This document shows positions 3,213 to 25,008 of a stretch of DNA of 25,008 nt, one piece after another; position 1 is the first letter of the stretch; every line of letters starts with the position of its first letter. The position numbers and the translations under genes are program-made. Source of the stretch: a virus. The notes beneath the pieces were generated by a model that ran no database searches, was not told the DNA's origin, and was given only the letters and a program-made list of their open reading frames with translations. The stretch covers positions 1-25,008 of IMG/VR virus record IMGVR_UViG_3300032299_000162. One strand, given 5' to 3'.

Positions 3213-3503
3213 CTACCTAACTTCTATGTGGTTATTTTCAAACAACCAGCTAACAGTTCTGCGGTGTGCTTCTTCCCATGCCTCAATACGTTCAGCCTTG
3301 GAGAGCGATTTGCCTTGGTCGATTTCCATGTGGCACGAATAACACATTGCCGCGACTCTGTAATCATGCGCTTTAATTCCTCGGCCTTTACCGTCTCGAA
3401 GCTGATTGGAATGTGCAGCCACAACTGTGCCGTCTTCTCTACCACACGCTTGGCATGGGGATTGTCTAATAACATCTAATAACTTTCTATCTCTATAAAT
3501 CAT
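3213..3503 (-). CDS. DUF1364 (YbcO-like) small phage nuclease
   Basis: 96 aa. It matches what I know of the DUF1364 family, which includes YbcO of the E. coli DLP12 prophage, an HNH-like small nuclease. Visible hallmarks are C17-x2-C20, AAHSN around 29-33, GKGRGIKAHD (38-47), the C54-x2-C57-H58 metal-binding cluster, EIDQGK (60-65), and a C-terminal ER...W..AHRRT helix. Length is normal for the family. The substrate is probably branched or damaged phage DNA in recombination (inference from the neighbouring recombination genes). The ATG at 3503 overlaps the preceding TGA as ATGA. It is the last gene before the terminator at 3056-3086. Confidence 0.85.
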   Translation of the reverse strand: MIYRDRKLLDVIRQSPCQACGREDGTVVAAHSNQLRDGKGRGIKAHDYRVAAMCYSCHMEIDQGKSLSKAERIEAWEEAHRRTVSWLFENNHIEVR

Positions 3504-3943
3504 AGATCTAGATGATACACATAGCGAAAGTCTTTATTAGGTATCACTACGCAATTCTCTGTCCTGACTTCATGGTTTCTGCGCATTACTTTGACTTCTG
3601 GGCTACCTTCTATTGGGAAATAAAGGTATAAATCATCAAACTCAACAAACATAAGGGCTGGAACTTTACGTTTTGCACCCTCGGCCATCATGGTTTTAAA
3701 CTTTTTTTCGCTAAACTGAAAGTCTGGGAATGTTCCAAAGTTATTAAATCTTCTGCGGTATTCCCCTATGGCAACTAACTTATCACCTCTAAAAAACTCC
3801 CAATCCCATATACTCATTGGCTCTTGAGTCTCAATGTGGACATTGAGAAAATTCATTAACTGATAAGCAGCAGTAGACTGGTTCATAGAGTCTTGCTCTA
3901 TTTGCCAGTCCTCCTTACGGTTTAAACCTTTCTCAAGGATCAT
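3500..3943 (-). CDS. conserved-looking phage protein, possibly a PD-(D/E)XK-type nuclease fold
   Basis: 147 aa with no motif that I recognise with certainty. The middle region, WDWEFFRGDKLVAIGEYRRR (46-65), has an acidic residue (D47), a turn and then E61-Y-R63, which resembles the D...(E)xK core of PD-(D/E)XK nucleases with Arg in place of Lys. A lysine-rich helix (FSEKKFKTMM, 77-86) and a hydrophobic strand (VPALMFVEFDDLYLYFPI) follow. This is a structural guess only. It is coupled by ATGA overlaps to the glycosyltransferase upstream and the DUF1364 nuclease downstream, and the nuclease neighbour mildly favours a role on nucleic acid. Confidence 0.5.
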   Translation of the reverse strand: MILEKGLNRKEDWQIEQDSMNQSTAAYQLMNFLNVHIETQEPMSIWDWEFFRGDKLVAIGEYRRRFNNFGTFPDFQFSEKKFKTMMAEGAKRKVPALMFVEFDDLYLYFPIEGSPEVKVMRRNHEVRTENCVVIPNKDFRYVYHLDL

Positions 3944-4692
3944 GCAGACCTTGGTAATTGTCCGCTAAATGTGTATGTGCCAGTATGCCCAAAAGCTGCC
4001 CAAGGCGCTGCGTAAACCTTAAATCCAGCCTCACGAGCAATTTTGCAGAAGTGGTAGTCCTCAGATAGCAGGCGGTTAGATTCTTCGTCAATACTGGTGG
4101 CAAAGAACTCCTTAATTATCTTAACTTCACGAACAGTATCCACGGCATGGTACATATCATTGGTATAACTGGGAACTTTATCGGATAAAGCATCAAATAC
4201 TTTACGTTTAATTAACATAAAGCCAGTGCCGCCATTAGCAATCTCCATTGGATCCATGATCGGACCACTTGTTGTTTGTGTGCCATTTGGGAGATTAACC
4301 ACGAAAGCTCCAGTATGTTTAGATAGTTCTGCTGGTGGAACGCCACGCTTGACCGCTGCCTCTACCTCCATCCAGTTAATCTCTTTCTTTGGATATAGGC
4401 CACAGATGATGTCCTTATCTGCCTTAATCATTAGGGCAATATCGTTGGGATTAAAGCTAATATCGGCATCAATAAACATTAGGTGAGTAGCATCAGACTT
4501 AATAAAGTCATAGGCCATACTGTTACGAGCACGGGTAATCAGGCTTTCATTCATCATAAATGAGTAATACATCTGGATATTGTTTTGACCGCACATACCC
4601 ACCATTTGCATGATTCCAGAGGTATACATACCTGTACATAAACCGCCGTACATTGGTGTAGCTACAAATAATCTAACTTGATCTTTACTCAT
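3940..4692 (-). CDS. GT-A fold glycosyltransferase-like protein
   Basis: 250 aa. It would transfer a sugar from a nucleotide-sugar donor in the host cytoplasm. An N-terminal strand (RLFVATPMYGG, 7-17) is followed by RARNSMAYDFIKSDATHLMFIDADISF (54-80 region) with the metal/nucleotide-binding D75-A-D77, then CGLYPKK. A glycine-rich acceptor segment (ANGGTGFMLIKRKVF, about 152-166) and SEDYHFCKIAREAGFKV with a later GHTG complete the fold. This pattern is common among phage-encoded glycosyltransferases of the GT2-like clan. It lies at the downstream end of the sugar cassette, coupled by ATGA to the genes on both sides. The acceptor, whether host O-antigen, phage DNA or a virion protein, cannot be read from the sequence. 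Confidence 0.75.
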   Translation of the reverse strand: MSKDQVRLFVATPMYGGLCTGMYTSGIMQMVGMCGQNNIQMYYSFMMNESLITRARNSMAYDFIKSDATHLMFIDADISFNPNDIALMIKADKDIICGLYPKKEINWMEVEAAVKRGVPPAELSKHTGAFVVNLPNGTQTTSGPIMDPMEIANGGTGFMLIKRKVFDALSDKVPSYTNDMYHAVDTVREVKIIKEFFATSIDEESNRLLSEDYHFCKIAREAGFKVYAAPWAAFGHTGTYTFSGQLPRSA

Positions 4693-4931
4693 TTTTTCTT
4701 CCCTTTTGTTATAGCTTCTTGTTGCGTTCGGTTGATGCTCATAATTTCGCCTGCTAAAAGCTCAAGGTGTTCACTATATTCTTGCAGTATTGTAGTAGCC
4801 GCCCACAACGCACCACTCTCTGCATTGTCTGTAATTCTATCGGCAACAAGCTCTACAATCATTGCGGCACTATGTACCTTGTATCCCAGTTCACTTACTT
4901 GGTTTGCTTTTTCCCACAGTCCGTCTACCAT
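4689..4931 (-). CDS. small hypothetical protein, 80 aa
   Basis: I choose the ATG at 4931 (MVDGLWEKAN...) because AGGAG lies seven bases upstream; an in-frame TTG at 4958 would add nine residues (NNKKRRSK) but has no good ribosome site. The protein is helical, rich in Ala, Glu and Leu (HSAAMIVELVADRI; ALWAATTILQEYSEHLELLA) and ends in GKKK. The length, Ala-rich helices and an LWA segment recall small bacterial and phage helical proteins that I cannot name. The start overlaps the end of the 64-aa gene upstream by 41 bases, and the stop overlaps the glycosyltransferase start as ATGA. Function unknown. Confidence 0.6.
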   Translation of the reverse strand: MVDGLWEKANQVSELGYKVHSAAMIVELVADRITDNAESGALWAATTILQEYSEHLELLAGEIMSINRTQQEAITKGKKK

Positions 4932-5085
4932 TTTGCTTCTCCTTTTTTTGTTGTTCAATATACTGCCTTAGTATGCTTAGTAAGCCTTCTTGTACTAAAA
5001 ACCCCAGCCCTTCGCTATCAAAGTTAACTTCGGCATCAGCCGAGCCATCCTTGTTTTTCTTAATTACTTTTACTGTGATTTCCAT
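4891..5085 (-). CDS. small phage protein, 64 aa
   Basis: Begins MEITVKVIKKNKDGSADAEV, a beta-hairpin-like opening (alternating hydrophobic and charged residues), then a helix (GFLVQEGLLSILRQYIEQ) and a Lys-rich tail. Proteins with an ITVKVIxxNxDGSA opening are common unannotated small phage proteins; I know of no function. The ATG at 5085 follows GGGGGAAAC at usable spacing. It overlaps the 55-aa gene upstream by 16 bases and the 80-aa gene downstream by 41 bases, so three small genes are nested end to end here. Confidence 0.65.
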   Translation of the reverse strand: MEITVKVIKKNKDGSADAEVNFDSEGLGFLVQEGLLSILRQYIEQQKKEKQNGRRTVGKSKPSK

Positions 5086-5237
5086 GTTTCCCCCAACGCA
5101 ATAGCATCGTAGACTTGACGTGCTACTTTTAACACATACTCAATATCGTTAGGGCTAAGTTGCCCCATTAGTTGTAGTATTTTCATAACGGCAACATCGT
5201 TGTCTAACGGTTGCGCCTTGACTAAATTCTCAATCAT
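5070..5237 (-). CDS. small hypothetical protein, 55 aa
   Basis: A 55-residue frame from the ATG at 5237, which overlaps the TGA of the upstream glycosyltransferase as ATGA, to TAA at 5070, inside the next gene. The sequence is helical (DVAVMKILQLMGQLSPNDIE, then YVLKVARQVYDAIALGE); the LSPNDIEYVLKVARQ part resembles short protein-interaction helices. No catalytic motif, signal peptide or membrane segment. The coupling on both sides is the best evidence that it is translated. Confidence 0.6.
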   Translation of the reverse strand: MIENLVKAQPLDNDVAVMKILQLMGQLSPNDIEYVLKVARQVYDAIALGETWKSQ

Positions 5238-5938
5238 TTCTTTCTCCAAGGTAGTTCGCCGTAGGCTTTTTTCATAACTTCGTTGCCTTCTCTAAACATA
5301 TTAAGTAGTCTTTCGGGTGCTCTGTAATTAACCGTAGCCTCTCCCGTGCATCCGAAGGCAGGCAGAGCTGATGCGGCAGCTTTATAGAATCCCCTGTCTG
5401 CGCCCCATTGACCATAGAAGCTATGTGCCACACGCACCAAATACTCCCGCTTAAAGCAATAACAGTTAGTATCGACAAAATTAAGTGTATGGTCATAATA
5501 TGTCGGGTTCCTACCGAGTGACTCGCAATCATCGTCACAAACATATTGTCCTGATTCATCTACTATTTTCCTTAAGCTGTAAGACCACATCAGGTCTTTT
5601 GATTTAATCTTTTGTAGCAACGTTTCTACATGGTTTGGCTCAAACCAATTGTCCTCATCCAAAAATAGGATGTAATCGGCATTTACCATCAGCGGCATAG
5701 CTGCATAGACTCTGTGTCCATACCAGTTATTAGCACCTACGTTTTCAGGAAGCGTCATAAATGTTGGGCATCCGTGCATACCATCTTCGTGCATAAAGAA
5801 ATCGCTTTCGGCTCTAGACCCATCAAACACAACAAGATGTTCTACAGGAGTATTTATAGTTTGGTCTGTAACGCTTTCAATTGCCTTCAATAATGACTCT
5901 TTCCCAGTAGTCGGGGTGATTACCATGATCCTAGACAT
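5234..5938 (-). CDS. family 2-like glycosyltransferase (GT-A)
   Basis: 234 aa. It opens with the typical nucleotide-sugar-binding strand and turn (MSRIMVITPTTGKESLLKAIESV), then HLVVFDGS (34-41), NVGANNWYGHRVYA, and the metal-binding D94-E-D96-N-W motif in YILFLDEDNWFEPNH. A FVDTNCYCFKREYL acceptor-loop strand and a GQWGADRGFYKAA segment follow. These are standard for GT-A enzymes of CAZy family GT2 and relatives. It has no membrane segment and would act on cytoplasmic substrates. Its start overlaps the end of the 53-aa protein gene by eight bases. It is distinct from, not a copy of, the other GT-A gene at 3940-4692, so two different sugars or linkages are plausible. Confidence 0.8.
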   Translation of the reverse strand: MSRIMVITPTTGKESLLKAIESVTDQTINTPVEHLVVFDGSRAESDFFMHEDGMHGCPTFMTLPENVGANNWYGHRVYAAMPLMVNADYILFLDEDNWFEPNHVETLLQKIKSKDLMWSYSLRKIVDESGQYVCDDDCESLGRNPTYYDHTLNFVDTNCYCFKREYLVRVAHSFYGQWGADRGFYKAAASALPAFGCTGEATVNYRAPERLLNMFREGNEVMKKAYGELPWRKK

Positions 5939-6092
5939 TACTAATATCCCTTTCTTTAATCATGGCATCAGCAATCTCATAGGCACGGGCAACAGCTACC
6001 TGATCCCATGTCTTCTCTGACGTATCAAACTTCCAATCGCCAGCGCAGATACCAGCCATAACTCTTACCGCAAACTCATCTCTTAGGTTCAT
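5931..6092 (-). CDS. small LRDxFA...ADAM family phage protein, 53 aa
   Basis: Translated from ATG 6092 to TAG 5931. It reads MNLRDEFAVRVMAGICAGDW and ends with RAYEIADAMIKERDISNV. The LRD-x-FA opening and (Y/W)E-x-ADAM-x-x-x-R ending also occur in the 60-aa protein at 7802-7984, so the two look like paralogues. Proteins of this pattern are frequent in tailed phages and have no assigned role that I know of. It is predicted to form two helices, soluble, without signal peptide. It overlaps the radical SAM gene upstream by 17 bases and the glycosyltransferase downstream by eight, so it is embedded in the sugar cassette. Confidence 0.7.
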   Translation of the reverse strand: MNLRDEFAVRVMAGICAGDWKFDTSEKTWDQVAVARAYEIADAMIKERDISNV

Positions 6093-6954
6093 ATATTTTC
6101 CTTATGTTGTCGCATGATTTACAGATGCTGCATTTGGTAAAGCCCAGCGCTTCATTGTGGGCAATCAGATCTTGCAAAGGCTTACCTTCAAAAATGTCAC
6201 TATAACTTTGTTCTAGTAAGTTTCCGATGATGTGCTTGAGACTGTAATCCATACAGCATAGGACAACAGATCCATCAGGCAGCAATACGTTGCGGTCATA
6301 AAATGGTGTGCTGCGGCAAGTTAAGGCAAATTCATGCCGCGGAGTTATATGAATATCTTGTGCGCCAATCTGCTCAACGGGAAGACTGTCTGCTCTAGTA
6401 TGACCTTTCCAGCCTGGCAATCGACCAACGATACTTTGCAGCTCTGAAGCTACCAGACCTGATCCATCCATTGTCATAGCGCCTACACCGCACGGAAGGT
6501 TTAGCTGGCTCATTACTTTAAGGTTATCAAGCCATTCCTCAGAACACTTCCAGCCCTTCATGTTGCCATTGGCATCTGGCAGATGGAGCATAACTACTTC
6601 TACCTGATCTGGGTGAGTCTCCAACACCTTCTTGACGCGCTCTGGTTCAGTCATACCATACAGGGTGGTATAGATAGCTACCTTAAATCCTAGGTATAAC
6701 ACCATTTCCAGCATCTGCGTAGCTTCAGGGTTAGCCCAAGGCTCAGACATACCTGAGAAGTCAATGCGAGTATTCTTTGGCAGCTTGGCTAATACTGTCA
6801 TCAGATCTATTGGCTGCATATACTTTGTTCCCGTACCATATTGCGTACGCAAAGCATCTTGTGGGCAAAAGGTACACATCAACGGGCAGCCGATCATGGT
6901 GGTTATTTCCATGACAGGACCATCGTGGTGGACTATTCCATACTTTTCTCTCAT
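6076..6954 (-). CDS. radical SAM enzyme with SPASM/twitch-like C-terminus
   Basis: 292 aa. The canonical iron-sulfur/SAM-binding motif is present as C23-PLM-C27-TF-C30 (CxxxCxxC), followed by a GMSEP segment (68-72) in the place of the GGEP SAM-binding motif. The C-terminal third has CRSTPFYDRN, PDGSVVLCC (cysteines at 233 and 234) and C275-SI-C278-KS-C281, which resembles a SPASM/twitch domain holding an auxiliary iron-sulfur cluster. Radical SAM/SPASM enzymes perform radical chemistry on peptides, sugars or cofactors; the substrate here is unknown. The gene sits between a fucosyltransferase-like gene (ATGA overlap) and a small protein plus GT2 gene, so a sugar or sugar-carrier substrate is the simplest inference. 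The key cysteines are intact, so it is probably active. Confidence 0.9.
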   Translation of the reverse strand: MREKYGIVHHDGPVMEITTMIGCPLMCTFCPQDALRTQYGTGTKYMQPIDLMTVLAKLPKNTRIDFSGMSEPWANPEATQMLEMVLYLGFKVAIYTTLYGMTEPERVKKVLETHPDQVEVVMLHLPDANGNMKGWKCSEEWLDNLKVMSQLNLPCGVGAMTMDGSGLVASELQSIVGRLPGWKGHTRADSLPVEQIGAQDIHITPRHEFALTCRSTPFYDRNVLLPDGSVVLCCMDYSLKHIIGNLLEQSYSDIFEGKPLQDLIAHNEALGFTKCSICKSCDNIRKIYEPKR

Positions 6955-7805
6955 CTCACTATGCTCCTGACAAATGCAATCGCATCGTCTAATTTAGGTT
7001 CTTTTTCTAACAAGGGTTTTTCGTAAATGTATTTATACATTTCGCTGTTGTTGTCCCACCCTCTGACATACTCTACAAAATTACCCATATTTTTTGTTTC
7101 TTGGTAGTTTAAAAAAGCCTTGTAATTAAAGTCTTCAGCTACAGATATGTCACCGCTATAAATAGGCACAGTGCCACCAGCGTAGGCATCAATTAACTTT
7201 TCGGTAATGTAGCCATCATAGATAGAGTTCTCTGGGCATAGGCAGAACTTATAGTCTAGCAGGATCTCAAACTTGGATGTGCGCAGGGAATTACCAAACA
7301 TATTCCCGTAGCCATCTACTTGCTTGTACTTGGACAGGGAGTTGTACAAGTTAACCCTTAGACCTTCAGGATTCCCAGCAATCATGGCACAGAACTTAGT
7401 CTTCTGGCTCATGTCAAGAGTGCGCCCCTTTGTCAGGGAATTAATGGATATAAGGTCTTCATAACCATGATTGTGGGAATTAGATTTGCGTGGCTTTTGA
7501 ATAAATCCAGGCCATGCTAGTCGAGCATACCAGAGAGGCAGCCTAAAATTTCTACCGCCATATGTATCGTAATCAAAAGAAAGGCTGTAATTGTAATTGA
7601 CAAAGCTAGGACGTATATTTTCCCCGATAAAGGAAAGTGTTTTATTCGGGTTTGTATAGACATTTCCGAATACCGAGGTAACAACGAGATCAGCCTCATG
7701 TGGATTATTAGTATAAACAACCCCATCGAAAGCCAAATTAAAAAAGAAATTAAAAAAGTCTCCATCAAAAGCTCCTTCCCAAAAGTTAACTACGCATAGC
7801 TTCAT
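6951..7805 (-). CDS. GT10 alpha-1,3/4-fucosyltransferase-like protein
   Basis: 284 aa. The signature of CAZy family GT10 is clear: KFCLCPENS (186-194), then DGYITEKLIDAYAGGTVPIY (197-216), then DFNYKAFLNY. Earlier FIGENIRPSF (59-68) matches the conserved GEN segment. In this family, as in Helicobacter pylori FucT, the enzyme moves L-fucose from GDP-fucose to GlcNAc-containing glycans; the conserved Glu/Lys of the YITEKL region contact GDP-fucose. Compared with H. pylori FucT (over 400 aa) it is short, lacking the heptad-repeat tail. No signal or membrane segment, so it acts in the host cytoplasm. Strict GDP-fucose specificity is not guaranteed. It is coupled by ATGA overlaps to the radical SAM gene and to the 60-aa gene upstream. 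Confidence 0.88.
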   Translation of the reverse strand: MKLCVVNFWEGAFDGDFFNFFFNLAFDGVVYTNNPHEADLVVTSVFGNVYTNPNKTLSFIGENIRPSFVNYNYSLSFDYDTYGGRNFRLPLWYARLAWPGFIQKPRKSNSHNHGYEDLISINSLTKGRTLDMSQKTKFCAMIAGNPEGLRVNLYNSLSKYKQVDGYGNMFGNSLRTSKFEILLDYKFCLCPENSIYDGYITEKLIDAYAGGTVPIYSGDISVAEDFNYKAFLNYQETKNMGNFVEYVRGWDNNSEMYKYIYEKPLLEKEPKLDDAIAFVRSIVR

Positions 7806-7984
7806 TTATTTTTGGCCTTCCTTGCCCGTACTGGTGGCAGGCCAATAGAACCATTGGCAGATCTAGCTTCAAGCATAGCATCAGCCATTTCCCATACTTC
7901 ATTCATATCAAATACGCTGTCTCTGTTTATCAACCCATTGACTATAAACATGGCAAAGCAATCTCTTAGGTCTTGTTCATTCAT
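7802..7984 (-). CDS. small LRDxFA...ADAM family phage protein, 60 aa
   Basis: Begins MNEQDLRDCFAMFIVNGLI, continues VWEMADAMLEARS and ends in a basic tail (VRARKAKNK). It shares the LRD-x-FA opening and the WE-x-ADAM-x-x-x-R helix with the 53-aa protein at 5931-6092. The basic tail is not present in the other copy. Start and stop both sit in ATGA overlaps (with the RHH gene upstream and the GT10 gene downstream), which supports the ATG at 7984. Role unknown; the two paralogues bracket the GT10 and radical SAM genes. Confidence 0.7.
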   Translation of the reverse strand: MNEQDLRDCFAMFIVNGLINRDSVFDMNEVWEMADAMLEARSANGSIGLPPVRARKAKNK

Positions 7985-12146: not shown

Positions 12147-12497
12147 ATGACCATGAATAACACTGTGATTTTGCCTTGGCCTCCAAAAGAATTGTCACCA
12201 AATTCTACGTTGCATTGGGCAAAAAAATCTAAGAAAAAGAAAGAATATCGCACTGCTTGTTGGGCTTTAACATTAGAGGCCAAGCTAATTGCCCCTCCTG
12301 GAGAGGATAAGTTTCCTATTGAGATTACTTTTTATCCGCCTGATAAACGGCATAGGGATGCAGATAACATGGTGGCCTCGATTAAAGCTGGCCTAGATGG
12401 GTTTGCAGACGCGCTTAAAGTGAACGATAAGCGTTTTTTACCTAACTTTAAATTTACTGAAGAAGTAAAAGGAATGATAGTTATTGAGATAAAATGA
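12147..12497 (+). CDS. rusA: RusA-family Holliday junction resolvase
   Basis: 116 aa, the only gene on the plus strand. The PNSTLHWAKKSKKKKEYRT region (19-36) and HRDADNMVASIKAGLDGF (69-86) with a later VNDKRF (92-97) are characteristic of RusA. E. coli RusA uses three aspartates for catalysis; here D71, D73 and D94 fit. It cleaves Holliday junctions and branched DNA in phage replication. The ATG at 12147 has only AGAAAG as ribosome site; the second Met, two codons later, is an alternative start. A strong terminator follows 30 bases after the stop. The divergent arrangement and the operator palindrome suggest separate regulation from the main leftward operons. Confidence 0.88.
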   Translation: MTMNNTVILPWPPKELSPNSTLHWAKKSKKKKEYRTACWALTLEAKLIAPPGEDKFPIEITFYPPDKRHRDADNMVASIKAGLDGFADALKVNDKRFLPNFKFTEEVKGMIVIEIK

Positions 12498-12528: not shown

Positions 12529-12555
12529 GGGTAGCCTTCGGGCTACCCTTTTTTT
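12529..12555 (+). terminator. intrinsic terminator with UUCG tetraloop
   Basis: GGGTAGCC (12529-12536), TTCG loop (12537-12540), GGCTACCC (12541-12548) and seven T residues: an ideal rho-independent terminator for rusA. It lies between two convergent genes; its tail overlaps the stop codon of the large minus-strand gene. On the minus strand the stem lacks a U tract, so it probably works mainly rightward. Confidence 0.9.
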
Positions 12556-15500
12556 AATCTTCAAGCTTGGCTATTTGGTCATTAAACCTTTTCATAATGA
12601 CTGCCTTTTGGTTTTCAATCCGCTTAATTCTATCGCTTGGCAGACCTCTTTCAATAAACTCTTTCTTTTGTTTATTTAGCGCGTTGATCTGGTTCTCTGT
12701 AGCATTAGCTGTTTGCCATAGTCTTGCCTGGGGGTTATCTCTTAAATATTGGCCAACAGGTTCTTTGTTTTTAATACGACCTTTAATTTCATTTTCATGG
12801 TCAGCCATATTAATGATGTTGTTATAAAAACGTGATGCTTCAGCAGCATTGGATTGAGTTTCCCCATAAAAACGACCCGCTAAAGGAACGCGATAAGCAG
12901 GAAGATCTTCACCAGTACTGGCAGCCTTAATTGTCTGACCAGTTTTCATAAGTTCACGCCCAACACCACCAGTAACTTGTCCAACTACATAGTCAAGCTC
13001 ATCCGCAGTAGGGCTTATCAAGCCTTTACTGTATTTGCCACCACCAGATGCCATGTTTAAGAAATAAGAAATCTGCTTATTAATTTCGCTTGAGCTTTCG
13101 CGGGAGCGCATATAGCCAGGGGTTGGGTTAGTTGCCTGGTCTTTCTTATAGATTGGTCTACCAAAAGCATCCTTATTTTCTGAAAGAGCAGCCAATGGAT
13201 CTAATACGGTTGGGGCAATACTTTGTAATGGGCCAGCACTACCTACAGGACTTAGGCCATCTGCAAATACACCAATCAAATTGCCAACTTTCTTTGTAGG
13301 ATTTTTTCCACCACTAAGCACAAACTCAGTAGTAAGGCGGCCTACGCTTGGTAGGATATGTAACCCAAGTGGGTATGGAATAGATAGATAATTACCGTCT
13401 GGGGTAGGGATAATAAAGTTACGTTCTTTTACAAACTCTGGAGGCTCATCATCTTTAAATCCAGCAGCTGCCAACAGTAAGGACTGCATAGATCCAAGAA
13501 GAACGCCGCCACCTATAATTGCTTTGCCTTTAGGACCTTTAAGAGTCTGAGCAAGACGAGCAGTACCTTGGATAGATGCGTTAAAGAAAGCATACAGCGC
13601 GTTAATATTGGCAGATAGCTGACCCTTTTTATCAAAGTTAACTGTCAGGTTCTTAGCAATAATGGCTGCCTGTTGTTTAGATAAGCCAAGGCCACCTTGA
13701 TCTTTAGGCTTGCTGGCAGAAAGATAAGCAGATAAACGAATGGCATTTTCTAAGGTGTCATTGAAGTCAGATAACGCACCAAAGACTGCTTTAAATGCCT
13801 TCTTAGCATTGCCACCAGCTGTAATTTTTGCCAGCTGCTCATCAACAATTGACTTTTCGCTTTCCTTACGCGCCAAGGAATCGCGATAACCAGTTTGGCC
13901 ACCCTCTTTCCTGAACTCTCGGAACGCTTTTTCCATGTCACTATCGCCACCAACTTCACCCTTACGTTCAGCGCGCAAGACCTTGAAAATACCCTTCATT
14001 GCAGGAAATATTCCAGCCGTAACTTGAGCCTGTTTACCAGCTAGAGGAGTGGTAGTTAAGTTAAATTGAGCGCCACCAACGTCACGGATTAAGTTGACTG
14101 CAGCAAAGATTGGGTTGTACTGGGTATTGACAGATGCGAACCAGCGGGTAGCCTTAGATACCAAGCTAGTCAATGTTCCCAGGCTTTCTACGTCTAGGCT
14201 TCTTAAAGAATTAGCCATGCGCACTGCATCAGGATTCTTTTGATTAAAAAATATGTAGCGGTTCTTACCATCTATTCTTAGCGTTAAAACATTATCGCCA
14301 AAACGATCAAGATTGTTTACCTTAAGCTTTACGGACTCTGGTGTATCAGTTGTAGGAAGGCCAGTAATCTTATCAATGATTCTCTTTTCCTTACTGATAT
14401 AGCGGCTCTTTGGTTCTTCCATTAAGTTGTTAGCTATTTCTTCAGGATTGTCATACCCAAGGCTTTCCAGCTCTTTAATCAAAGCCTCTTTGCTCTTGAT
14501 CGCATCTGGGTTTACTGGCAAAGCTACATCTGGGTTAGGGTTCATTAAGAACAAACCGTATAGCGCTTTAGTTACAGTCAACTTCTCAGCGCGAATCAGG
14601 GCGCGTTCACGTTGTTTAATTAAGTTAGAAATGATGTCCTGAACTTCTTTTTCAGAACCCATAGCTCGTTTGCTAAAGTTGCCGCTAACGTTGAATCCTT
14701 TACTTAATCCAGTAGCCCCCATGCCATTAATGAAGTTTTCCTCAACACGGAACAATGGTACATAGTGCTTATAGGTTTCATTCCAGGCATCAATAGTGTC
14801 TTGGCTATCTGCTCCAGAGTCCACAAGGATCTTCTGTGTCCCAGTAACCATGTCATCAAACATCTTGGCAACGGTTTCTAAGTTTGCTTTTTTGGCTGGA
14901 TCAAGGTTATCAAGTATTTCTTTAGCCTTGTCAGTAGACATACCAGAAGCACGATCTTGCAGCTCCCAAGGGGTTTTGCGCTCTTCTCCTGTGCGTGGAT
15001 CAAGCTTGTTTAGCTCATTCATCTTGTCGTTACGCTCTTTGGCGTGACGCGCAAGCAGATACTCTTGCATTTCTTGAGGCTTAATATTTAGCTCTTTAAG
15101 CTTTTTAATAGCTGGCAACAACTCATTAAGCAAGTACTCACGAATAGCTGTAGCTACTTTCCCATGGAAAAGCTGTTCTTTTTCGTAAACGTTAATGTCA
15201 TCAGTAATCTGACCAGCCGACTTCAGAATAGCTTGCTGTGCGCGCTTAGTGTCAATCTGCTTATCTTGGAACTTATAGATTAAATTATTGACAGAGACAT
15301 CTGTTACGCCAGGAATATGGAGAAATGTATCTTCTGGGAATTGCCAAGTAGATTGAACTGGCTGGCCTAAGTAGTTACGCGCCTCTGATGGTGGTTTCTT
15401 TTGACCTTCTTCTGAAACAGGCTCTTCTTTTTTGATATTAGATATATCACTAGGAGAGTAATTTTTTAAAGAATATCCTTCATCATAGGCTTGCTTGTTG

Positions 15501-18500
15501 TACTGCATAACCTTGTCAGGAGAGAGTATTGCATCAACATCTTCTCCTCCAGAATAGTAAGAAAATTGTACTGGTAAATATTTATATCCAAGTTTTTCAG
15601 CAGCCATAATTCTATGATTGCCCTCATTAACATAAGGTATTCCTCTAAAATCTACGTTAATGAATGGATAGTAATGCTCTGTATCTTTAGCTCCCTTGCC
15701 AGGTGGAAGCTTATTCTTTTCAGACATGTATCCAAGAATAGAATCTAAGTCTTTTTGACGAACATTATTTTGTTCATCATTGATTCCACGAATATTTTTT
15801 AATATAGATATTGGCAATAGCACTGGTCTAGAAGTATTTGCAACACCCTCTTTAGAAGTAAAACTTCCAGTTGACGGGCCAAACCTACGATATGCACCAG
15901 ATGCTTTTTTACCGCTTTCTCTATTGCGCTCTATCTGATCTTCTAGCCAAGAGCCGCCTGGATTATCTTGATATAAATAAGTTGGCTCTTGCTCTATATT
16001 TGTTAAATCTTCCTTCATTGTTGGGAAGTCATATCCTTCAGTCTGGGCAAGACGCTTCATATCTGCTGGAGTTTGAGCAAAGATCTTCTCAGAAACAATC
16101 ATTATGCGATCAAGCGCTGATTGGTAATCTGGGTTTAGGCCAATTACTTTACGGAAGATTTCCATCAACTTAGTTAAGGCTGTCTTCTTACCCATCTTAA
16201 CCATAGATAAATAAGACTGAACATTCTTTTCTGTTAACGATCTTACAAAAAGTTCGTGAATATCTTTAAGAATAGAGCCATTATTTTTAGATCCAACCTC
16301 ATTTAACAATGGATGCCATTTGTCTCTAGGAGTATTCTTTTTATCAAGCTCTATTGCTGTTTTAACTGCGTTGTATATTGAACGTAGCTCGTTATAAATT
16401 ATTTTATCTGGGCCTTTGTAGTTACGCTTAATCAGTGCATCTAACTGGACTTGGCTGATAACGTGCAACAACTCGTGCAAAAGAGTGCTGTAACGTGTGC
16501 CAGTAGGTGTGCGAGAAACTGGCATACCATCAATAGCATCTTTTGATCCTGAATGTGTTTCAGCTTCGCCCTTAGAGTTCAGTCCATTGTATTGAACTCT
16601 AAAATAACTAATCTTTCTATTTGAGCTAACTGGTAAAGAAGATCCATACCAGGTGTGTCTCTTTGCGCCTTTAAGAATTTCTATTTTTACTGGAACTCCA
16701 GAGTCTTCAATAGCCTTGATGTTAAAAAGAGTTCGTTCCGCAATAGCTTTAGCTGCAGCGTTTGGTGCTGTATCTACCAGATATTGAGCAAGCTGAGAAC
16801 CTTCAGTCATGCCATCAATGTCTTTGGCAATCTGATCCATTGGCCTCTTAGACTGAAATTGCGCTGGTTCTTCTTGATTTTCAGTTGATCTAGTTGCCTT
16901 TTCTGCTTCAAATAGATCTGGCTCTGTTTTCTTAGCAAAAGAATCTTTAATAATCTGGTCTACTGGGCGCTTTGGAACATCGCCAAACATATCTGATCCA
17001 GCTTTACTACCTTCGCTGTAGGCATTGTCAAATAAATTAGATAGGTTTTCACCAATAGCCTTGGCTGAACGCGGATTGTCAGCAAACATCTGCACAATCT
17101 GATTGGCTAAAGGATTGGTGGTAATGTCAGTTTGCTTGGCTGCGTCTTGTAGACTGAGGTTGTTACGTCTGGCATTGATAGCCATCTCTACTGCTTCATT
17201 AACCAGTGGGCGTACATCATAATCGCCAGCATCGCCTAGTCTAATAGCCTTGGCTGCTGCTACGTTTAGGCCGCGAATAATGTTGCGAGCCTCTTCGTCT
17301 TGGGCTTGAAAGCCTAATTCAGTTAATTTGTCATTCCCATAAGCTTGTTGGAAGATGGCTGCATTAAGGCGGTCTACTGCTTGCTTGGTAGGGTTTCCAT
17401 CTTTATCAATCAGATTGCCGCGCTCTGTATCAGGCATAGCCTTAATAAAGTCACGAACTGTCTGTGGGCTTACATCACCAGAGTCATTGAATTGAACGGC
17501 AGAAAGGTCAACGCGGTTAGTATCGTTCTTAGCTTGTTCTACTACGTTAAATGATAGCCCAGCACCAACATTACTAATATCACCAGTATTCTTATTTACT
17601 TTAGCCATAGGCATAATGCGAACCAACATTGGGTTCCGCATACCTTCAATGACTTTTGGATCAATTCCATGCAAATCATCACCCAGTAAAGCTGATTTGT
17701 AATTATCTGCAGTACCTTGACGGTATGCGGCCTGTAGTCCAGCTACGCGCCCGTTAGTAATAGCTCTAAATGCGGGTACGCTTTGGTCAACATAAGCTGG
17801 ATTTTTTGTTCCGTCAGAATTGTGCGATGCAATAACATCACCAGCTTCAATAACTCCATACTGAATTTGTAAGTTATTGCCGTCTGATCCAGTAAGGACA
17901 TCTGTTCTACCTAAATGAGTAGGATCAACTTCACCACCAGCTACAACTGGTGCGCCTGTGCCGTAGTCACGGGACATACTGACTCGGTTGTAATCAGGTT
18001 CATTAGCAATCTTAGCCATCTGAGCTATAGAAGCTGGGGTAGACCTATCTCGGTTCTGGATGCTTTCCCAGATATTTCCTTTTTCTGGTTCTGAAATAGG
18101 TGTTATATCAGTTGGAGCTGGAGGTGCTGGAGGAGTAGGTTCTGGTTCAATTGAAGGTGGAGCAGGTGGAGATGGTGGTTTTCCACTTAACTCATCAATC
18201 ATTGCCTGAGTATCTTGGGATGTAGAAGATGGGGCAACTACTGGAGGAACTCCACCTTCTGGAGGAGTAACTGGAGGAGTTACAGGCGGTTTAACTGTTG
18301 GGGCTTCTGCACCTGGACCGCGTACACCTACGGTTGCACCAGTTAATGCTCCAACTGCTGCATCACGGGCAGCAGCACCAGCAACGCCTTCAAACGTACC
18401 AACGTCCATGCCTTGTTTTTGCAGGGCGCGGTTGATTGCCAATTGTTCTTGACCGCCTTGTACACCCTCTAATGGAGCTTCAGCTAGGGCAGCTTTACCC

Positions 18501-19327
18501 ATACGGCTTGCAAGTCTTGCATCAAGCTTTGCTGCAGCGCCAGGGGTTAATAGATTTTCTACACCAACACGAGCACCAGCGCCACCTAACACAGCACCAG
18601 CAGCTATATCTAAGAAATTTTCGCCTAAATATTCTTGAGCTTTTGAGGCTCTAGCAGCAGCCTCTTGAGGATTCATCCCTGATTTTTCTAGCTCTTGCTT
18701 AACTCCATCATACAAAGAACCTTTAACAGCGCCAGTGCCTTGGGCAGTGCCTACAACTGTATTGATTGCTTTAACGGTAGGTCCACCGAGCTTGGCTATG
18801 CCACCAATGATACCTGTACCAACGTATGGAACTATAGAGCCTAAACCTTGCGCAAGAGATTGAACTGGGGCTTCAGCTACACCTGCCAAGAAAGCGCCTA
18901 TTTCATCGCTTATAGAACCCTTAGAAGCTTGTTTTTGCAAAGCCTCTCTACGAGCCATTTCAGCTTTACGCTCTGGCGAGTATTGTTCAGCAAGACCTTT
19001 TGTAACCTCGCCTAATGCCTGTGATGCTGCGTTATCAGCGCCAAATACATCTGTTAAGGATTTGCCAGCACCAACAATCCCTGTGCCAAAAGCAATGGCT
19101 GTATCTTTAGCTGAAAATCCAGCGTTAACAGGAGGCTGTTCAATGGGTTGGGTAGGTTGTTTGGCAGCGTCATATCTGCCAAGTTCATCTGGAACTGCAC
19201 CAGTTAAATTGCCAGTAGCTTGGGCGGGTTTATATGCCTGATACCTTTTTAAAAGGTCAGCTTGAGTGACGTTGTCAGGGACCCCACTAATGATGGTCCC
19301 ATCTGGCATTTGCACATCTATTGGCAT
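12554..19327 (-). CDS. giant polyvalent virion protein (ParB-like modules, metallopeptidase motif, LPD38-like)
   Basis: 2257 aa, uninterrupted. The opening (DVQMPDGTIISGVPDNVTQ) is common at the start of very long phage proteins. A glycine-rich hydrophobic stretch lies at about 140-260, then a Pro-rich linker (about 342-410). Around 455-560 is a ddrB-type ParB-like domain (IASHNSDGTKNPAY, AITNGRVAGLQAAYRQG). At 951-955 is HELLH, a zincin-type metal-binding motif. A second ParB-like module spans about 1160-1270 (NEGNHRIMAAEKLGYKYLPV). From about 1700 to 2150 is an LPD38-like region (SVNTQYNPIFAAVNLIRD; IPYPLGLHILPSVGR) with a hydrophobic segment near 1935-1957. The end is a charged coiled coil. 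Such proteins are thought to be packaged and ejected with the genome. ATG 19327 has AAAGG upstream. Confidence 0.8.
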   Translation of the reverse strand: MPIDVQMPDGTIISGVPDNVTQADLLKRYQAYKPAQATGNLTGAVPDELGRYDAAKQPTQPIEQPPVNAGFSAKDTAIAFGTGIVGAGKSLTDVFGADNAASQALGEVTKGLAEQYSPERKAEMARREALQKQASKGSISDEIGAFLAGVAEAPVQSLAQGLGSIVPYVGTGIIGGIAKLGGPTVKAINTVVGTAQGTGAVKGSLYDGVKQELEKSGMNPQEAAARASKAQEYLGENFLDIAAGAVLGGAGARVGVENLLTPGAAAKLDARLASRMGKAALAEAPLEGVQGGQEQLAINRALQKQGMDVGTFEGVAGAAARDAAVGALTGATVGVRGPGAEAPTVKPPVTPPVTPPEGGVPPVVAPSSTSQDTQAMIDELSGKPPSPPAPPSIEPEPTPPAPPAPTDITPISEPEKGNIWESIQNRDRSTPASIAQMAKIANEPDYNRVSMSRDYGTGAPVVAGGEVDPTHLGRTDVLTGSDGNNLQIQYGVIEAGDVIASHNSDGTKNPAYVDQSVPAFRAITNGRVAGLQAAYRQGTADNYKSALLGDDLHGIDPKVIEGMRNPMLVRIMPMAKVNKNTGDISNVGAGLSFNVVEQAKNDTNRVDLSAVQFNDSGDVSPQTVRDFIKAMPDTERGNLIDKDGNPTKQAVDRLNAAIFQQAYGNDKLTELGFQAQDEEARNIIRGLNVAAAKAIRLGDAGDYDVRPLVNEAVEMAINARRNNLSLQDAAKQTDITTNPLANQIVQMFADNPRSAKAIGENLSNLFDNAYSEGSKAGSDMFGDVPKRPVDQIIKDSFAKKTEPDLFEAEKATRSTENQEEPAQFQSKRPMDQIAKDIDGMTEGSQLAQYLVDTAPNAAAKAIAERTLFNIKAIEDSGVPVKIEILKGAKRHTWYGSSLPVSSNRKISYFRVQYNGLNSKGEAETHSGSKDAIDGMPVSRTPTGTRYSTLLHELLHVISQVQLDALIKRNYKGPDKIIYNELRSIYNAVKTAIELDKKNTPRDKWHPLLNEVGSKNNGSILKDIHELFVRSLTEKNVQSYLSMVKMGKKTALTKLMEIFRKVIGLNPDYQSALDRIMIVSEKIFAQTPADMKRLAQTEGYDFPTMKEDLTNIEQEPTYLYQDNPGGSWLEDQIERNRESGKKASGAYRRFGPSTGSFTSKEGVANTSRPVLLPISILKNIRGINDEQNNVRQKDLDSILGYMSEKNKLPPGKGAKDTEHYYPFINVDFRGIPYVNEGNHRIMAAEKLGYKYLPVQFSYYSGGEDVDAILSPDKVMQYNKQAYDEGYSLKNYSPSDISNIKKEEPVSEEGQKKPPSEARNYLGQPVQSTWQFPEDTFLHIPGVTDVSVNNLIYKFQDKQIDTKRAQQAILKSAGQITDDINVYEKEQLFHGKVATAIREYLLNELLPAIKKLKELNIKPQEMQEYLLARHAKERNDKMNELNKLDPRTGEERKTPWELQDRASGMSTDKAKEILDNLDPAKKANLETVAKMFDDMVTGTQKILVDSGADSQDTIDAWNETYKHYVPLFRVEENFINGMGATGLSKGFNVSGNFSKRAMGSEKEVQDIISNLIKQRERALIRAEKLTVTKALYGLFLMNPNPDVALPVNPDAIKSKEALIKELESLGYDNPEEIANNLMEEPKSRYISKEKRIIDKITGLPTTDTPESVKLKVNNLDRFGDNVLTLRIDGKNRYIFFNQKNPDAVRMANSLRSLDVESLGTLTSLVSKATRWFASVNTQYNPIFAAVNLIRDVGGAQFNLTTTPLAGKQAQVTAGIFPAMKGIFKVLRAERKGEVGGDSDMEKAFREFRKEGGQTGYRDSLARKESEKSIVDEQLAKITAGGNAKKAFKAVFGALSDFNDTLENAIRLSAYLSASKPKDQGGLGLSKQQAAIIAKNLTVNFDKKGQLSANINALYAFFNASIQGTARLAQTLKGPKGKAIIGGGVLLGSMQSLLLAAAGFKDDEPPEFVKERNFIIPTPDGNYLSIPYPLGLHILPSVGRLTTEFVLSGGKNPTKKVGNLIGVFADGLSPVGSAGPLQSIAPTVLDPLAALSENKDAFGRPIYKKDQATNPTPGYMRSRESSSEINKQISYFLNMASGGGKYSKGLISPTADELDYVVGQVTGGVGRELMKTGQTIKAASTGEDLPAYRVPLAGRFYGETQSNAAEASRFYNNIINMADHENEIKGRIKNKEPVGQYLRDNPQARLWQTANATENQINALNKQKKEFIERGLPSDRIKRIENQKAVIMKRFNDQIAKLED

Positions 19328-23673: not shown

Positions 23674-23979
23674 CTAAACCTTAACTTTCAAAACATTAGC
23701 GTTAGAGGTATCAACATAAACATCACCTATTCTGAGGCTTGATATTTCAACCTGAGTTGGCAAGCTCAAAACTTGAACGCCAGTAGCATTGGCTTGGCTA
23801 AAATTAAGGGCAGAAACCACCCTATTACCCGTTCTTAGGGTAGACATAGCACAAACACCAGGGGTATCTAGCTGGGAAAAGTATAGGCGCAAGACGTTAT
23901 TAAGCTGGTCTTGGTACTGTTGGCTATATTCAACAGGAGCAATAGGTAAGTTAGGGGCTTGGGTTGTTCCAGTACTCAT
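23674..23979 (-). CDS. small virion-associated protein, 101 aa
   Basis: Begins MSTGTTQAPNLPIAPVEYSQ followed by QYQDQLNNVLRLYFSQLDTP, a pattern common among small proteins next to short-tailed phage tail genes. The C-terminal half is beta-rich (VQVLSLPTQVEISSLRIGDVYVDTSNANVLKV). There is one cysteine. Its ATG (23979) overlaps the tail-protein stop as ATGA. No known function; the neighbour context suggests a tail-tip, adaptor or assembly component. Confidence 0.65.
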   Translation of the reverse strand: MSTGTTQAPNLPIAPVEYSQQYQDQLNNVLRLYFSQLDTPGVCAMSTLRTGNRVVSALNFSQANATGVQVLSLPTQVEISSLRIGDVYVDTSNANVLKVKV

Positions 23980-25008
23980 CTTCTGCCATCATTCTTAATG
24001 TCAATACGAGGTGCGCCTAACTGCCAAGCCACGCCTAAACCATTTGAGCTAATCTTAAATGCCATCTGCCGACCACGCAAACGGGTATATACCTGACCAG
24101 TAAACTCTTGAACCGTATACTGTGGGTATACAGAATAGTTGTTAGAACTGGTAACTCCAGGAGTATCAGAATCTCCATACGCAGATCCACTGTTATAACG
24201 TGGCTGTAGTGTCATAGTTACTGCTGGCTGGTTTACATTTGAGCCGTTAAAGTTAATGTCTGGCAATATCCTCCAGACTAATCCAAAGTTATGACCATCG
24301 CCAATATCAAAGTCAGAAGACTGCACATAGGCGGTAATAGGCAATGTTGTGGCTGTAGACTGGTCATCGTTACCAAGTTCATGGTAATTGATATTTCCAG
24401 TAGGATTACCTACATCATCAGCGCCATTAATAAATGCCCCCATAGGATTCTGACGAATACCAGAGTCTAGCCAAGCAGTACGGTTTAGAGTACCGTAATA
24501 CCATACACGATCCAAATAGTTATAAATAATGTATTTGTCAATTACCGTGCTGTTAGTAGAACAATAAAACCACCAAATTTCGTTGTAGCCTTCATTACCG
24601 CCAACAGTAACCTGATAACCTTGGTCTTTATTAATGTCCGCAAAAACATATTGACGCAGCGCACAAGGCAAAGTTTCCACACGGCCTGAGTACATATAGA
24701 ACTTATCAGCACCCATCCAATAAGTAACGTTATTAATGGTAATTGCCGCATTAGGAGAAATGATAGAAATGTTATCCATCAAGATTTGAAATCCCCAAAC
24801 ATAAGGAGGCCCAAGATATTGCATAGAATAGATAGCCGAATCAGTCCATACCAAGATCTCTTGGCGAGTAGCCTTGGCTGACATAATGTATGAGCCGTTT
24901 GATAGGCGGAATTCACCAGATTGATTTGTGATTGCGGGAACCCATTCATATGGATTTTCTTGATCTGACCAGCGTACAAGCATAGGATCAAACGGTGTAG
25001 CTGGATCA
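23976..25008 (-). CDS. tail protein resembling P22 gp10 (packaged-DNA stabilisation/tail hub), partial at 5' end
   Basis: 343 codons are visible; the frame continues past the right edge (DPATPFDP precedes the first in-frame Met at 24983), so the N-terminus is missing. It is beta-rich with repeated short strands, as expected of a propeller-like tail protein: MLVRWSDQENPYEWVPA, EILVWTDSAIYSMQYLGPPY, ITINNVTYWMGADKFYMYSG, LRQYVFADINKDQGY and EIWWFYCS. The W-S-D...P-x-E-W phrase and the Trp/Tyr-rich blades recall the P22 gp10 stabilisation-protein family; this is from memory of family appearance, not a search. The stop overlaps the 101-aa gene as ATGA. A different tail component (hub or fibre adaptor) is possible. 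Confidence 0.6.
   Translation of the reverse strand, partial: DPATPFDPMLVRWSDQENPYEWVPAITNQSGEFRLSNGSYIMSAKATRQEILVWTDSAIYSMQYLGPPYVWGFQILMDNISIISPNAAITINNVTYWMGADKFYMYSGRVETLPCALRQYVFADINKDQGYQVTVGGNEGYNEIWWFYCSTNSTVIDKYIIYNYLDRVWYYGTLNRTAWLDSGIRQNPMGAFINGADDVGNPTGNINYHELGNDDQSTATTLPITAYVQSSDFDIGDGHNFGLVWRILPDINFNGSNVNQPAVTMTLQPRYNSGSAYGDSDTPGVTSSNNYSVYPQYTVQEFTGQVYTRLRGRQMAFKISSNGLGVAWQLGAPRIDIKNDGRR

Follow-up and report, generated by a model that had tools for sequence, protein, structure and literature searches.

A glycan-gene cassette on the minus strand of an uncultured freshwater virus of bacteria is the subject of this work. The virus record (IMGVR_UViG_3300032299_000162), analysed over its full 25,008 bases, is called the window here. 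The cassette combines a GT10-type gene of the alpha-1,3-fucosyltransferase family, a radical S-adenosylmethionine (SAM) enzyme, a GT2-family glycosyltransferase and a second glycosyltransferase of GT-A type (GTA). Dozens of viral contigs, whose backbones differ, have the same GT10-radical SAM pair and the same order GT10-radical SAM-GT2-GTA, in strong support of the initial annotation, which had proposed one functional cassette. We tentatively explain it as a co-inherited phage module which, during infection, builds a short, unusual glycan, the likeliest acceptor being a virion protein. Radical SAM enzymes that act on sugars have been described chiefly from the making of antibiotics, and a conserved phage module that joins one to glycosyltransferases of the fucosyl, GT2 and GT-A types and to an FkbM methyltransferase would give phages a new way to unusual sugars.

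Cassette genes and their conservation

The cassette belongs to an overlapping run of minus-strand genes from 7984 down to 3213, in the order s60 (a small open reading frame, ORF), GT10, radical SAM, s53 (small ORF), GT2, three more small ORFs, GTA, a PDDEXK_14-like gene and an HNH gene. The four main genes lie at the minus-strand sites where they had been annotated, and their Pfam and PHROG matches agree. The tight coupling by ATGA overlaps with interleaved small ORFs, also noted in the initial annotation, was located at three junctions of 4 nt, namely 7802-7805 (s60/GT10), 6951-6954 (GT10/radical SAM) and 4689-4692 (s89/GTA). The remaining cassette junctions have longer overlaps, mostly of 8-17 nt. 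Overlaps of 4 nt also extend beyond the borders drawn earlier, into the PDDEXK-type gene (3943-3500) and the HNH nuclease gene (3503-3213). All four main proteins show purifying selection against their relatives, with a ratio of nonsynonymous to synonymous change (pN/pS) of 0.08-0.33, and are therefore functional genes rather than chance ORFs.

GT10 (6951-7805, 284 amino acids) has the family domain (PF00852, E 1.5e-17) and a FucT-type N-terminal domain (FucT_N, PF18025, E 2.2e-7), both above the curated Pfam cut-offs (64.3 against 23.9 bits and 31.6 against 27.2 bits). A phmmer search matched it to the solved alpha-1,3-fucosyltransferase FucT (PDB 2nzw) at E 4.6e-27. The window protein shares its two domains and a nucleotide-sugar motif near the C-terminus with FucT, but is shorter (284 against 371 amino acids). 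The residues E192, G198, Y199, T201, E202 and K203 are conserved in at least 95% of 52 aligned sequences. No GDP-mannose dehydratase was detected in any of 21 non-T4-like cassette records (about 33-67 kb), so in these small phages the sugar donor would be supplied by the host.

GT2 (5234-5938, 234 amino acids) is a GT-A-fold enzyme with a PF00535 match (E 4.4e-9; 36.9 bits against a curated cut-off of 23.3). A profile of its family picks up solved enzymes of GT2 type at about 1e-5, and its motif 93-LDEDNW-98 is conserved in at least 95% of 61 aligned sequences. GTA (3940-4692, 250 amino acids) belongs to phrog_1574 (E 5.8e-47) and is the most conserved cassette protein (pN/pS 0.08-0.14). The gene and its earlier assignment to the GT-A fold class are supported; phrog_1574 has no named function, and the assignment rests on an Anp1 match slightly under the Pfam cut-off (1.1e-5), on D75-A76-D77 (the DAD motif) within the invariant 73-FIDADI-78, and on a GT-A-like predicted fold (predicted local distance difference test, pLDDT, 81). 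In the fold search, the best solved matches were human LH3, COLGALT1 and mimivirus R699, at a template modelling (TM) score of 0.49 and 10-12% identity. GTA was not assigned to the LH3/COLGALT-type protein glycosyltransferases, because no sequence homology was detected and the fold likeness is weak.

A scan of viral contigs found 79 loci with relatives of the radical SAM gene, 64 of them at 58% identity or more. GT10 was counted only where at least 4 kb of upstream flank was available, and GT2 and GTA only where at least 4 kb of downstream flank was. Among the 64 close loci, all from uncultured viruses, GT10 lies upstream of radical SAM in 36 of 37, and downstream of it GT2 is found in 49/49 and GTA in 45/49. 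The initial annotation had asked whether the homologues are scattered, and these counts show them to co-occur. The complete order GT10-radical SAM-GT2-GTA was found in 44 loci. The backbones differ: in podovirus-like phages the cassette either precedes or follows the recombination genes, other phages have different replication genes, and some are T4-like. In T4-like phages, radical SAM (60-63% identity), GT10 and GT2 stand beside genes for GDP-mannose dehydratase, a GDP-fucose-synthase-like protein and a DegT aminotransferase, and the same regions hold other glycosyltransferases and sliding-clamp-like genes.

A second survey, anchored on GT2, found GTA in each of the 68 loci whose downstream flank was long enough. 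Radical SAM and GT10 were each present in 42 of the 47 close loci, and 11 more distant loci (49-53% identity) have GT2-GTA with neither radical SAM nor GT10. Because GTA accompanies every GT2 while the distant loci do without these two genes, GT2-GTA is the wider core, with GT10, FkbM and radical SAM as an exchangeable upstream cap. The cap itself varies. For example, GT10 occurs without radical SAM in L110, L115 and L119, another glycosyltransferase-like protein occurs without radical SAM in L140 and L147, and L052, the closest full-length relative (79%), has that same protein and a methyltransferase together with radical SAM. A search for a cultured phage with a complete cassette found none; matches of the radical SAM protein are limited to four annotated phage records (29-32% identity), and GT2 and the FkbM partner gave no match in the cultured-phage search. 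A 2.3-Mb chromosome labelled 'candidate division WOR-3' (L093) includes a phage-like region that encodes a family-B-type DNA polymerase, a GT2 (50% identity to that of the L061 phage) and radical SAM; this region may come from a large phage that is integrated or was misbinned.

Radical SAM enzyme and its probable FkbM partner

The radical SAM protein (6076-6954, 292 amino acids) matches the radical SAM domain (PF04055, E 1.1e-9) and has a twitch/SPASM C-terminal domain (PF13186, E 1.1e-10). Its CX3CX2C motif is formed by C23, C27 and C30. These three and the cysteines expected to hold an auxiliary cluster (C213, C233/C234, C278 and C281) do not vary among 41 aligned sequences, the most distant of which is 29% identical. 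A twitch domain contains one four-cysteine auxiliary cluster (PMC9012708), and the C-terminal cysteine layout of the window protein is that of a twitch domain with a single predicted auxiliary cluster.

By family profile and by predicted fold, the nearest solved relative is BtrN (PDB 4m7t), the twitch aminocyclitol dehydrogenase of butirosin biosynthesis. BtrN ranked first in the profile comparison (E 1.8e-10), and it was the best PDB match of the AlphaFold model, which was built without Met1 (pLDDT 91; E 3.4e-9, TM 0.59/0.69). It was followed in the fold search by anSME and DesII, and the peptide-modifying SPASM enzymes SuiB, EpeE and SkfB also match, less well. The window protein and BtrN share the CX3CX2C motif, the four-cysteine layout of a single auxiliary cluster, size and fold, but differ in genomic setting and are only 17% identical. 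The radical-modified sugar suggested in the initial annotation is plausible, with BtrN as the nearest relative and sugar-type enzymes among the neighbours and fusion partners; the sugar modification itself we infer.

An ORF for an FkbM-type methyltransferase lies beside radical SAM, on either side of it and between GT10 and GT2, in 42 loci. The window has no such counterpart, and GT10 and radical SAM overlap directly. The correlation of pairwise distances between radical SAM and FkbM (r = 0.87) is the highest of all pairs, against 0.48 between radical SAM and the backbone exonuclease. Relatives of the radical SAM protein (32-34% identity) are fused to FkbM domains in proteins of 700-950 amino acids in the cyanophage DSL-LC02 and in IMG/VR contigs (e.g. 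L071 and L074). The co-variation and the fusions together are good evidence that radical SAM and FkbM act in one pathway. Such fusions were seen at L071-L079 and L094:6663-8816, near collagen-like or tail-fibre genes. The DSL-LC02 fusion is preceded by a gene annotated as a beta-mannosyltransferase, and for some fusions the next protein looks by eye like a 2-oxoglutarate-Fe(II) oxygenase.

Probable acceptor of the proposed glycan

We propose that GTA and GT2, the invariant core, lay down the first sugars of the glycan. GT10 would place a fucose-type sugar at the end, drawing on a GDP-sugar made by the host, in keeping with the known function of its family. The twitch radical SAM enzyme may oxidise or otherwise alter a sugar carbon, in the manner of BtrN or DesII, and the co-variation and fusions suggest FkbM, missing in the window, as its partner in most relatives. 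The acceptor would be a virion protein, for example a tail, fibre or tube protein. The genes that surround relatives suggest this, and so, weakly, does the nearness of the GTA fold to protein-hydroxylysine glycosyltransferases. Speculatively, the exchangeable GT10/FkbM/radical SAM cap could vary the outermost sugar and thereby tune adsorption or allow escape from surface recognition. The more specific scenario, in which a widespread family of freshwater phages makes a radical-modified sugar with a BtrN-like enzyme and FkbM and attaches it through the GTA/GT2 core to its own virion proteins under an exchangeable outer cap, is possible, and we hold it with considerable doubt. If it is true, no earlier phage glycan pathway has centred on a radical SAM enzyme for sugars.

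The gene contexts of four relatives appear to favour virion proteins over the host surface. A GTA relative adjoins the tail-tube gene near the major head gene in the T4-like L061, and in Synechococcus phage ACG-2014f another is found amid tail-collar genes, together with a GT2 and a sugar epimerase. The radical SAM-FkbM fusion of DSL-LC02 stands among tail-fibre and collagen-like genes, and similar fusions in L072 and L074 are near long collagen-like proteins. A pattern search for collagen-like acceptors found them beside these distant fusions and found none in four small-phage genomes, nor in the searched part of one T4-like genome. In Pelagibacter phage HTVC027P, a GTA relative (gp81) and the GT-B-type gp80 are inside the structural module, and a second GTA relative (gp05) is among replication genes.

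Several observations weigh against a virion acceptor or against the cassette as a single module. The window cassette adjoins recombination genes (Cas4-like, ERF and SSB) and not virion genes, and several T4-like phages have GTA by itself, in the interval from gp46/47 to the sliding-clamp gene. The fold matches of GTA are weak in TM score, identity and model confidence alike, and its profile retrieved no glycosyltransferase from the PDB at E <= 1, and thus no sequence link to protein glycosyltransferases. The radical SAM locus counts are not independent, most loci coming from related phages.

A virion-protein glycan is our best guess, and its main rival is remodelling of the host surface, in which O-antigen, capsule or lipid-linked precursors would be altered in the cytoplasm and superinfecting phages excluded. 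Jumbo-cyanophage glycan clusters have been read in this way (PMC7824862). FucT-type enzymes are among the relatives of GT10, an alphaproteobacterial relative of the radical SAM gene adjoins GT10 and lipopolysaccharide (LPS)-type GT25 genes, and the T4-like versions include sugar-nucleotide genes. We nevertheless consider it rather unlikely: our analysis found neither a flippase nor a polymerase nor an acyltransferase among the cassette genes, hydropathy indicates no membrane-like segment in any cassette protein (which is compatible with cytoplasmic LPS precursors), and several relatives stand beside virion genes. A Gtr seroconversion cassette was also considered and rejected, as it needs the membrane proteins GtrA/GtrB and the cassette proteins have no such segments.

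Hypermodification of DNA, with the glycosyltransferases acting on modified phage bases and radical SAM tailoring them, would suit the frequent position of the cassette or GTA beside replication and recombination genes, and the T4-like GTA between gp46/47 and gp45. The alpha-glucosyltransferase gene of T4 is in the same general gp46/47-gp45 region. Such a system should include a gene for the hydroxylated base, either a pyrimidine hydroxymethylase or a cytosine methylase plus TET. We find this reading improbable, since thymidylate synthase/hydroxymethylase (PF00303) is absent in 28 of 29 records, some of which may be incomplete contigs, its sole carrier being a 374-kb jumbo phage, and cytosine-5 methylase (PF00145) occurs in only 4/31. 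Among T4-like GTA carriers, DLP6 and OC lack a thymidylate synthase/hydroxymethylase, and Cr30 and phiM19 each contain a single member of the family, which scores as thymidylate synthases usually do. A search for TET gave no signal even in its control and was given no weight. The initial annotation had left the target between host O-antigen, phage DNA and virions; decoration of DNA is now disfavoured and O-antigen remodelling less favoured, and the neighbourhoods of the relatives favour decoration of virions.

The radical SAM enzyme could also be a maturase that acts on an interleaved small protein, as for ribosomally synthesized and post-translationally modified peptides, with the glycosyltransferases modifying the same peptide. 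SPASM/twitch enzymes are frequently peptide-modifying, anSME, SuiB, EpeE and SkfB are among the fold matches, and small ORFs immediately flank the gene. A place in a peptide-maturase clade, raised in the initial annotation, was not what we found: BtrN is first by both profile and fold, the neighbours and fusions are sugar-type, and the 292-residue protein has no extra N-terminal recognition domain. The neighbouring small ORFs differ in kind and number between loci (short ORFs are poorly detected), s53 was undetected in many radical SAM loci (e.g. L012, L016, L017 and L043), and members of the s60/s53 family are also found upstream of GT10. We give this reading little credence. Already largely refuted by the co-occurrence counts, and very improbable, is the view that these are unrelated accessory genes, neighbours by chance in one lineage and without a joint product; such genes do collect in phage accessory regions and GT10, FkbM or radical SAM is each missing in some loci, but order and pairing are maintained across different backbones including T4-like ones, the strongest co-variation falls within the cassette, and radical SAM relatives are fused to FkbM.

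Related phages and surroundings of the cassette

Phage glycan clusters are already known, and the version with a radical SAM gene is apparently new: we found no published account of radical SAM in a phage glycan cluster or with phage glycosyltransferases or FkbM, in a literature search that left subscription journals mostly uncovered. Cyanophage and T4-like clusters, with sugar-nucleotide enzymes and several glycosyltransferases, have been assigned to capsular or LPS modification (PMC7824862), in a paper where 'radical SAM' and 'FkbM' appear nowhere. These clusters share with the cassette the grouping of phage glycosyltransferases, and T4-like members have the same radical SAM, GT10 and GT2 beside GDP-sugar genes. 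The window cassette differs in that it is compact, lacks sugar-nucleotide genes and is centred on a twitch radical SAM enzyme. Phage-encoded virion glycosylation occurs in mycobacteriophages and is touched on in published papers. It likewise involves several phage glycosyltransferases without membrane parts, and the virion acceptor is what we propose here; we know of no radical SAM or FkbM partner in that system.

Judged by terminase and tail proteins, the nearest phages to the group are HTVC023P-type pelagiphages, 023Pt_psg01 and DSL-LC04 (57-62 kb phages). Glycosyltransferases get no more than a brief mention in a paper on phages of the HTVC023P type, and none is named in the main text of the transcriptome paper on HTVC027P. 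The isolate HTVC027P has a tail protein homologous to one of the window phage (31%), and its gp05 and gp81 are of the GT-A family of the window GTA (26-28%). It differs in that the 50 kb searched contain no radical SAM or GT10 relative and no close GT2, and gp81 is paired with a GT-B-type enzyme. The cassette offers a testable hypothesis for phrog_1574, often annotated as 'hypothetical protein', including in the cultured phages Caulobacter Cr30, Sinorhizobium phiM12 and Pelagibacter HTVC027P. Genes of this type, mostly annotated as hypothetical, also lie between gp46/47 and the clamp in L097, L098, L099 and L100 (near position 6000), from T4-like phages of Caulobacter, Ochrobactrum, Stenotrophomonas and Sinorhizobium. 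The T4-like L061 phage has in addition a QueE-like radical SAM gene (L270:12347-13213, minus strand; phrog_2076) near a helicase and UvsY-like genes.

The small ORFs of the cassette are all on the minus strand. s60 (7802-7984, 60 amino acids), which overlaps the GT10 start by 4 nt, matches the C-terminal part of phrog_2201 (E 6.5e-4) and is paralogous to s53 (5931-6092, 53 amino acids; same part of phrog_2201, E 4.2e-11), with 35% identity over 46 columns (E 5e-6). These two paralogues, which match the end of phrog_2201, and other short ORFs turn up repeatedly among the cassette genes of different loci, in differing numbers, as though they were swapped together with those genes. The three further ORFs are s59 (5070-5249), with a TTG start and a frame open in relatives at 71-96% identity, s64 (4891-5085), kept in relatives, and s89 (4689-4958), with 31 related ORFs at other loci and an internal in-frame ATG which may be the true start.

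The PDDEXK_14-like nuclease gene (3500-3943, minus strand; PF24579, E 1e-7) has a 4-nt overlap with GTA and is kept after GTA in L007, and an HNH endonuclease gene (3213-3503, minus strand; phrog_131, E 3.9e-26) ends the overlapping run. The recombination genes upstream of the cassette code for a Cas4-like exonuclease, for an ERF annealing protein and for an SSB-like protein. Past them comes a 2257-residue LPD38/ddrB-ParB polyvalent protein (12554-19327, minus strand), with ddrB-ParB-like (PF18763) and LPD38 (PF18857) domains and matching PHROGs without a function, as do virion proteins, a candidate being encoded at 23976-24983. A promoter scan gave fewer matches than in shuffles, and we claim no promoter. 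A plus-strand ORF at 12147-12497, without a Pfam match, resembles by eye a RusA-type resolvase. Between convergent genes, at 12529-12548, there is a strong terminator-like hairpin with 8 pairs, 6 of them G-C, followed by seven T.

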